Assembly (NCBI GenBank): GCA_031254265.1
Contig: JAIRUV010000032.1
Coordinates: 1-16,888 of the forward strand
Direction: 5' to 3'
DNA: 16,888 bases
DNA from: Candidatus Methanoplasma sp.
GTDB taxonomy: Archaea > Thermoplasmatota > Thermoplasmata > Methanomassiliicoccales > Methanomethylophilaceae
In this document: positions 13,368 through 15,554 of the stretch, in pieces
How positions within the stretch are numbered: position 1 is the first letter of the stretch
How the letters are laid out: each line of letters starts with the position of its first letter
Notes under the pieces: model-generated
What the model saw: the letters and a program-made list of their open reading frames with translations, nothing else
Database searches by the model: none
What the model was told of the DNA's origin: nothing
Translations under genes and position numbers: made by a program

Positions 13368-15554
13368 TCATCTGTAACTATATACGCCGTCTCCTTTTGC
13401 CTGATATCCGTATTCTTTGAGTTTCTGTGCCGCCTGCGGTCCGAACTTGTCGAATGCCTAGACGAAATCTGCCATGCCGACCTTGCAATCTTCTATCTCC
13501 TCATCTGTGGGGACCTTCCCCGGCTTTATGATGCGTCTGACCGCCGTCATGACAGCCTCGTTGCATATCGCCGCTATGTCCGCGCCCGTGCATCCTTCCG
13601 TCCTTTGTGCCAGTTCTTTGATGTCTACATCGTCCGCCAAAGGCTTTCCTCTCGTGTGTATCTCAAAGATGGCAGTTCTCGACTTATGGTCGGGCGGGCC
13701 TATGAATATGCTCTTGTCGAATCTTCCTGGCCTCAGCAGGGCAGGGTCCATTATATCGGGGCGGTTCGTCGCCGCGATCACGACCACGTCATTCAGGGAC
13801 TCCAGGCCGTCGAGCTCAGTCAGCATCTGGGATATTACCCTCTCTGTGACGTTGCTGTCGCTTCCCGTCCCCCTTTCCGGCGCGATGGAGTCGATCTCAT
13901 CCATGAATATCACGCAGGGCGATGCCTGCCTGGCTTTTCTGAAAGTTTCCCTCACGGCCTTTTCCGACTCACCCACCCACTTATTGAGGAACTCGGGCCC
14001 TTTCACCGCGATGAAGTTCGCTTCCGACTCCGTCGCCACAGCTTTTGCTAGCATCGTCTTGCCGGTTCCGGGCGGGCCATACAGCAGTATCCCCTTAGGA
14101 GGTTTGGCGCTCATGTGTTCGAACACCTTCCCGAACTTCAGCGGCCATTCGACGGCTTCCTTCAGCTCCTGCTTCGCGGACTCCAGCGCGCCGATGTCCT
14201 CCCACTTCACATCGGGTTTCTCTATCAGCACCTCCCTCAGTGCCGAAGGCTGAAGGTCCTTCAGCGCCTCTTTGAAGTCGTCCTTCGTCACGGAGATCAT
14301 ATCCAGTATGTCCACTGGGATCTCCTCGGTCTCCAGATCGACCTGCGGCAGTATGCGCCTCAGGGCCGCCATCGCCGCCTCTTTGCAGAGCGCAGAGATG
14401 TCGGCCCCGGCGTAACCGTGGGTGCGGTCCGCCAGTCTCTTCAGGTCGACATCCTCCGAAAGCGGCATGCCTCTCGTGTGGATCTGCAGTATCTCCAGCC
14501 TCCCGTTCCTGTCCGGGATCCCTATTTCGATCTCCCGGTCGAACCTCCCCGGCCTTCTGAGGGCCTCGTCTATGGAATTCGGTCTGTTCGTCGCGCCTAT
14601 GACCACGACCTTCCCTCTAGAGGTCAGACCGTCCATCAGGGAGAGCAGCTGCGCCACAATGCGCCTTTCCGCCTCGCCCGTGACCTCATTCCTCTTCGGT
14701 GCGATCGAGTCTATCTCGTCTATGAATATGATGCTCGGAGCGTTCTCTTCCGCCTCTTTGAAGATCTCTCTCAGCTTACCTTCCGATTCGCCGTAGAACT
14801 TGCTCATGATCTCCGGCCCTCCGATCGAAATGAAGTTGCTGCTGGTCTCCCCGGCAACAGCTTTGGCCAGCATGGTCTTGCCCGTCCCGGGAGGGCCGTG
14901 AAGAAGCACCCCTTTGGGAGCCTCCACGCCAAGTCTTTTGAACAATTCCGGGTGCCTAAGAGGGAGTTCGATCATCTCCCTGATCTTCGCCACTTCGTTG
15001 CTCAGTCCGCCCAGATCATCGTATGAGACCTGAGGGACCTCCATGTCTGTCGCAGATGCCCGTTTCTCGGAGATCTTCACTTCTGTATCGGCTGCCATGA
15101 CGACGGCATCCCCGGAAGGGGAGAACGATGTTACAACAAGATCGATCTTGTTGCCCATCACGTTCATGGTGAGCACATCGCCTCTCGCGAACGCCCTCCC
15201 TTCCATCACTTTGCTGAGATATTCCTCTCCTCCCTGAAGCCTGAGCTCTTCGGTCGGCGAGAATGCTATCTTACTTGCGGTCTTTGCAAAGATCTTCTTT
15301 ATCCCCACCCGTTCGTCTATGGAGGTTCCGGCGTTGCGCCTTGTGGAACCGTCTATCCGTATTATTCCGCGGTTGGCATCCTCAGGGGTCCCCCTCAGCA
15401 CCTTGACGACCGTCTTTTTCGTACCATCTATCTGAATGATGTCGCCTGCCCGGAGTTCGAAGATATCCATAAGCTCAGGGTCCAGCCTCGCTATGCCCTT
15501 TCCGGTCTCTCCAGGCTTCAATTCCGCGACCTTGATCGCTTTGTCACTGCTCAT
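13368..15554 (-). CDS. cdc48: Cdc48/VAT AAA+ unfoldase with in-frame amber (TAG) codon
   Basis: This ATP-driven unfoldase acts in archaeal protein quality control and can feed the 20S proteasome. The N-domain (double-psi barrel plus 4-stranded part) spans about residues 1-175. The D1 domain has Walker A GPPGTGKT (220-227), Walker B IIFIDE (275-280) and arginine finger RRPGRFDR. The D2 domain has Walker A (493-500), Walker B VIFMDE (548-553) and LLRPGRFDK. The first stop in frame is TAG at codon 699 (13458-13460). The frame then runs 29 more codons to TGA (13368-13370), giving 728 residues, the usual family length. After the TAG come [19 protein letters not shown] and a tail ending VYSYR, which continue the conserved D2 helix, so I annotate the read-through form. 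The start overlaps the stop of the upstream regulator (ATGA) with AAGGAAAGAGG before it. If TAG terminates, the product is 698 residues (13458-15554). Confidence 0.9.
13458..13460 (-). other. In-frame amber codon, candidate pyrrolysine site in Cdc48
   Basis: TAG interrupts the cdc48 frame inside a conserved helix. Upstream the protein reads KVGMADFV, downstream AFDKFGPQ. In the first AAA+ module of the same protein the equivalent helix reads [20 protein letters not shown], so the TAG occupies the position of Glu in DFKEAL. The continued frame has no further stop for 29 codons and ends in TGA. In pyrrolysine-using archaea TAG in such places is decoded as pyrrolysine. No convincing PYLIS-type hairpin is visible just downstream, but such an element is not strictly required. 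The amino acid actually inserted is an inference. Confidence 0.7.

Follow-up and report, generated by a model that had tools for sequence, protein, structure and literature searches.

The cdc48 gene in the window (the whole 16,888-nucleotide stretch of Candidatus Methanoplasma sp. DNA that was analysed) is interrupted at codon 699 by an in-frame amber codon (TAG), and the sequence beyond it is homologous to the C-termini of related Cdc48 unfoldases. Part of pylS, together with pylB, pylC and pylD, is encoded elsewhere in the same assembly, and TAG is rare as a terminator in this genome. The cdc48 amber is probably a pyrrolysine site that was acquired by chance at a tolerant position of a helix; in reading it so, we infer that the base is correct, that the codon is read through in translation and that pylT lies in the unassembled part of the genome.

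An amber codon falls within the last D2 helix of Cdc48

The gene product was identified as CDC48 by NCBIfam TIGR01243 (residues 6-711; 1046 bits versus a cut-off of 802.65), and its best solved structure by sequence is a VCP-like ATPase (PDB 5g4f). The original prediction had described a cdc48 frame of 698 codons, a TAG at 13458-13460, 29 open codons and a TGA, and this arrangement was borne out:

13461..15554, minus strand: cdc48 codons 1-698, with the ATG at 15554, reaching midway into the last D2 helix
13458..13460, minus strand: in-frame amber TAG, codon 699; serine TCG, TCC or TCT in the nearest nine relatives
13371..13457, minus strand: 29 post-amber codons, with the remainder of the D2 C-terminal helix, helix 706-719 and a tail ending YR
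13368..13370, minus strand: terminator TGA; the nearest relatives end there too (TGA 8, TAA 1)

After the TAG, the frame runs on to its TGA without an indel or an additional stop. The start of cdc48 is overlapped by an upstream ORF (15551-16177), and the first ORF downstream has its start at 13364 or later. An RNA element around the amber is unsupported, as folding there was no better than that of shuffled sequences (z 0.64). Elsewhere in the protein, residue 165 is arginine where all 55 other compared sequences have proline, which is either an error or a real change.

Cdc48 was then modelled with AlphaFold2, with lysine placed at position 699 (34 sequences; mean pLDDT 78.9; pTM 0.48). Residue 699 lies inside a predicted helix spanning 694-704 (mean pLDDT of block 691-700, 90), which agrees with the earlier statement that the peptide after the TAG continues a helix. 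Since the position is internal to this helix, a stop at 698 would, on the model, cut the last D2 helix. A predicted helix at 706-719 comes next, and residues 716-728 are of low confidence.

Relatives conserve the residues after the amber and encode a sense codon in its place

All family genomes searched matched cdc48 (102/102), some of the matches being a second paralog or fragments. Among the 86 family genomes with a listed match of at least 74% identity that covers codon 699, this assembly included, TAG at this codon was counted by hand in this assembly only (1/86); none of the genomes compared for codon 699 is a second genome of the same species. The closest Cdc48 proteins among named genomes come from MAGs of Candidatus Methanoplasma and of other Methanomassiliicoccaceae, several of them termite-derived by name.

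For the alignment, 109 relative loci (partly from the same genomes) gave 105 ends and 84 distinct proteins, some from outside the family. Column 699 is occupied by K in 26 proteins, E in 17, S in 11, G in 9, A in 7, I in 4, T in 3 and Q in 3, with N, V, R and M once each (n = 84). An earlier claim had put the TAG on a helix position in a conserved motif: the position is mid-helix in the model (694-704), but the column itself is variable. The nine nearest Cdc48 relatives (88.9-91.3% identical) all have serine at 699 (TCG in five, TCC in two, TCT in two), so that one C-to-A step, from TCG to TAG, would explain the amber.

Beyond column 699, at least 12 residues are present in 84/84 relatives and at least 16 in 83/84, and Pro706 is conserved in 83/84. 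The nine nearest relatives have exactly 29 residues there, aligned gap-free to the 29 codons, and this gapless fit argues that the open tail is more than chance. Whether relatives share the codon and conserve the tail had been raised with the original prediction; the post-TAG residues are conserved, while the TAG is private, with a sense codon in the other genomes. Read-through had also been said to restore the family length of 728 residues, which holds for the nine nearest relatives, but 68 of the 84 relatives end 1-17 residues before position 728 (9 end at the same position and 7 later). Post-TAG changes between this gene and the nine nearest relatives number 41 synonymous and 92 non-synonymous, compared with 260 and 301 among the nine themselves, both sets being pseudo-replicated.

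The tail here ends in SYR, which is not canonical HbYX; the nine nearest relatives end in GYR or GYS, and a penultimate tyrosine occurs in 17/84 Cdc48 relatives. In the accessible portion of one study, a C-terminal HbYX motif is reported for 54 archaeal VAT/CDC48 proteins and is not universal (PMC11475706). A proteasome-docking HbYX tail was ruled out as the reason for read-through, the tail being neither canonical nor conserved. A second Cdc48 paralog in the near-complete relative G033 (C1:54382-56574; 730 aa, 53% identical) ends in FYG, which is canonical HbYX-type.

The assembly encodes pyrrolysine genes

The assembly is apparently a metagenome-assembled genome (722,734 bases in 151 contigs; 59.7% complete), and the window is its contig 106. 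On contig 130, the final 155 codons of pylS are followed by pylB, pylC and pylD, and PylS_Cterm, PylB, PylC and PylD all exceed curated NCBIfam cut-offs (pylS through the model of its C-terminal domain). This contig stops inside pylS, where relatives have pylT. Within the genus, pylS was matched in 14/17 genomes, this assembly included. Upstream of pylS, a tRNA pattern with a CUA anticodon was found at 11/13 relatives' loci, and ARAGORN called tRNA-Pyl at 5/13 relatives' pylS loci, including both that were missed by the pattern. With one relative's pylT as the query, no match was found in the 60%-complete assembly itself, where the contig ends within pylS; if the gene precedes pylS as it does in relatives, it would lie in the part that was not assembled. 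Of the pyl genes on which the pyrrolysine proposal had been made to depend, the 3' part of pylS and pylB, pylC and pylD are therefore present, but pylT was not found in this partial assembly.

MtmB was matched in 14/17 genus genomes, with one in-frame TAG in 24 of 29 matches and the other five being fragments. No mtmB match was found in this 60%-complete assembly or in two other genus genomes, nor was MttB found in this 60%-complete assembly.

TAG is a rare terminator and an occasional internal codon in this assembly

We compared 294,317 bases of this genome (G000) with 1.2 Mb of G033. At 133 orthologous gene ends, the terminators here were TGA 102, TAA 28 and TAG 3, and at the same ends in G033 they were TGA 102, TAA 29 and TAG 2. 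The 15 other listed genes of the window end in TGA (12) or TAA (3), with TAG at 0. A dnaJ gene outside the 133 (L212:2937, contig 36) seems to end at TAG, near its relative's end, with about 40 open codons following; it would gain some 40 residues were TAG always sense, and its apparent end at TAG speaks against TAG always being sense.

Across 150 gene pairs (44,117 codons), 4/21 listed stops in this genome were judged real and internal, three of them TAG (that of cdc48 included) and one TAA. In nadC (L165:7923, contig 110), a private TAG follows GGG where five relatives have Trp, and both flanks are conserved. A PLP-enzyme gene (L159:3205, contig 103; Pfam PALP), which we take to be threonine-synthase-like, has a private TAG where five relatives have Lys, Ala or Glu, again with conserved sequence on both sides. 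A pyrD-like gene (L033:2887, contig 1; Pfam DHO_dh) has a private TAA near its end, where five relatives have Glu, and the sequence beyond it is well conserved. For these three genes no stop is listed in the other matching genomes among the 17 of the genus, except for a TGA row in nadC of G042 that lies outside the aligned part. The pyrD-like TAA points to error or recent nonsense and, because TAA cannot be pyrrolysine, it is the main warning.

The remaining 17/21 rows of this genome were set aside by eye (10 'edge' and 7 'internal' by script). Two of the 'internal' rows (L151:4808, L208:3796) lie upstream of a start, and five (L208:284, L149:1351, L035:991, L035:958 and window:16786; three of them TAG) concern ORFs with overlapping or competing reading frames and remain judgements after a re-check. 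In G033, eight stop rows were obtained, two of which were flagged internal, and none was judged a real internal stop (151 pairs). The comparison of the 150 gene pairs, in both directions, revealed no frameshift.

TAG-interrupted ORFs of G033 were also scanned with Pfam (20/26), which returned MttB, MtbB, a transposase and a SAVED protein, with no housekeeping enzyme among the 20. In the transposase ORF (L177:5839-6735), the TAG is codon 279 and falls within the DDE domain match.

Codons one step from a stop in this genome comprise 7544 for TAG, 4535 for TAA and 3485 for TGA (15564 in total). With TAG the commonest one-step stop, three TAG and one TAA are compatible with random error and do not favour recoding, and we rejected stop counts as a discriminator because they do not separate the two.

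Ambers occur in core genes of other family members

V-ATPase A was matched in 86/100 genomes and contains one internal TAG (G088, L296, codon 243). What we take from their sequences to be the DNA polymerase D large subunit and SMC were matched in 99/102 and 95/102 genomes, respectively. The former has TAG in G067, G070 and G065 (L299, codon 597), and, in G086, a TGA within a split match that appears to be frameshifted; the latter has TAG in G074 (L300) and G056 (L301). Codon 533 is the amber in both G067 (L297) and G070 (L298); its surroundings differ between the two, and the DNA of the two polymerase genes is 88% identical. The simplest account would be a single amber inherited by both species from before they separated, and neither assembly error nor lethal nonsense explains well an amber common to both genomes. 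Judging from codon 533 in these two species, ambers in core genes can persist in the family.

Internal TGA codons were found in Cdc48 at codon 372 of L026/L067 (the same gene, G060) and at codon 22 of L101; beyond those, the 110 Cdc48 loci checked held just the amber plus one natural end each. The Cdc48 TGA or TAA rows of G079, G099, G101, G098 and G059 come from matches that end near the natural C terminus. Across the family, the four genes together have 7 internal TAG, 0 TAA and 3 TGA (one in a split match), a distribution that is not significant against an expected TAG share of ~0.48 (from G000 codons).

The original prediction regarded Cdc48 as an unusual pyrrolysine protein. This was overstated: other family members have in-frame ambers in their genes for V-ATPase A, SMC and DNA polymerase D, and relatives' ordinary genes with in-frame ambers are described in the accessible sections of two reports (PMC4153887, PMC5011839).

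Origin of the cdc48 amber

We propose that a recent, probably single-base change turned a TCG serine codon into TAG in an otherwise normal Cdc48 unfoldase. The lineage would charge an amber-reading tRNA with pyrrolysine, and the ribosome would mostly read the TAG as pyrrolysine and proceed to the TGA, giving a 728-residue protein. The amber would have been gained by drift and not for a special function, because column 699 accommodates various residues in relatives, K, E, S, A and G among them, and pyrrolysine is itself a derivative of lysine. For pyrrolysine speak the partial pylS with pylB, pylC and pylD, the rarity of TAG as a terminator and the conserved post-TAG residues; against it, the TAG is private, and pylT and mtmB were not found in this 60%-complete assembly. 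A special function for the amber has no support, the site being private and variable, with no RNA element and no canonical proteasome tail.

The competing explanation with the most weight, although we think it unlikely, is a substitution error of assembly or sequencing, in which case the gene is unremarkable and codon 699 is really a serine TCG or some other sense codon. The assembly is fragmented (151 contigs, 59.7% complete) and contains the private TAA of the pyrD-like gene, cdc48 itself has a radical private change (arginine 165 against proline in 55 others), and G033 had no internal stop judged real across a similar number of codons. Two other assemblies have an internal TGA in Cdc48, so errors or nonsense changes do occur. 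Such an origin is harder to square with zero frameshifts among 150 compared gene pairs, with a PLP-enzyme TAG that is two or three bases from the codons of five relatives, and with a window contig that, at 16.9 kb, is long by the standards of this assembly. As a weak test, the V-ATPase A and B genes of this contig also argue against error, with just a single mild private change apiece (K59R, S87A) at otherwise invariant columns. Private-substitution tests are too weak for an error rate.

If the base is correct, the TAG could be a real nonsense change, with translation ending at 698 and the shortened Cdc48 being either a neutral variant or covered by a second paralog. Relatives do own a second CDC48 (e.g. 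that of G033, 730 aa and 53% identical), and the post-TAG tail looks somewhat freer here by the pseudo-replicated changes given above (41/92 versus 260/301 synonymous/non-synonymous). We consider this improbable, as the cut lands within a helix and removes residues that all 84 relatives have, the tail has no indel or further stop with its TGA in place, and pyl genes are present in the assembly. It is hardly conceivable that the amber is regulatory, with termination and read-through giving two proteoforms and pyrrolysine supply (methylamine use) setting the amount of full-length unfoldase. Substrate regulation of a pyrrolysine cassette has been described for a bacterium (in the available text of PMC4153887, citing others), but here the TAG is private, the site is variable, no RNA element was supported (z 0.64 versus shuffles), and the tail is a non-canonical SYR whereas the second paralog of G033 ends in FYG.

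Under the preferred reading, a chance-acquired pyrrolysine site, a core AAA+ machine of one methanogen would contain pyrrolysine. It would reveal the extent to which amber serves there as an ordinary sense codon, and the pyl cassette would be required beyond methylamine use. The stronger proposal, in which full-length Cdc48, and with it an intact D2 ring, would require a supply of pyrrolysine, tying protein quality control to methylamine metabolism and making pyl essential, seems to us quite doubtful. Taken alone, Cdc48 adds modestly to the known ambers in ordinary genes. The DNA polymerase D amber in two species makes it directly testable whether TAG is simply sense in the family.

Comparison with known systems

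We found no report of an amber in cdc48 in the accessible parts of the open-licence literature, and pyrrolysine and Cdc48 are treated separately in the portion of PMC5852551 that was available. The most similar situation in print is that of Ca. M. alvus, for which Borrel and others predicted 16 Pyl proteins beyond methyltransferases, with 1.6% TAG stops; half of the predictions have amber-free homologues, and the authors proposed chance mutations that are stable where TAG is suppressed (PMC4153887, in part). In ISO4-H5, 46 amber genes include methyltransferases, adenylate kinase, a sugar isomerase and cas3 (PMC5011839, in part). As far as these sources were available, both organisms resemble the one studied here in belonging to the same order and in having in-frame TAG in ordinary genes, amber-free homologues and a pyl operon, and Ca. 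M. alvus also in its low use of TAG terminators. They differ in that Cdc48 is absent from the Pyl table of Ca. M. alvus (PMC4153887) and is not named among the amber genes of ISO4-H5 (PMC5011839), in the sections seen of each, and in that the genome here is partial.

The archaeal CDC48/VAT unfoldase of PDB 5g4f belongs to the same family as the protein studied here, in which the amber lies in the last D2 helix and the end is not a canonical HbYX. MtmB, MtbB and MttB likewise contain an in-frame TAG (24/29 genus MtmB matches; MtbB and MttB of G033), but their amber is conserved, whereas that of cdc48 is private and at a variable helix position. In the methylamine methyltransferases, the pyrrolysine residue is catalytic. 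Archaea that read all TAG as pyrrolysine have reportedly been described by Kivenson and others in 2025. By the title of a 2009 study (Heinemann; ref. 79 in PMC4153887), a tRNA-His guanylyltransferase acquired pyrrolysine by 'neutral evolution'; there, a pyrrolysine user would have gained an amber in a housekeeping gene through drift, as we propose for cdc48.
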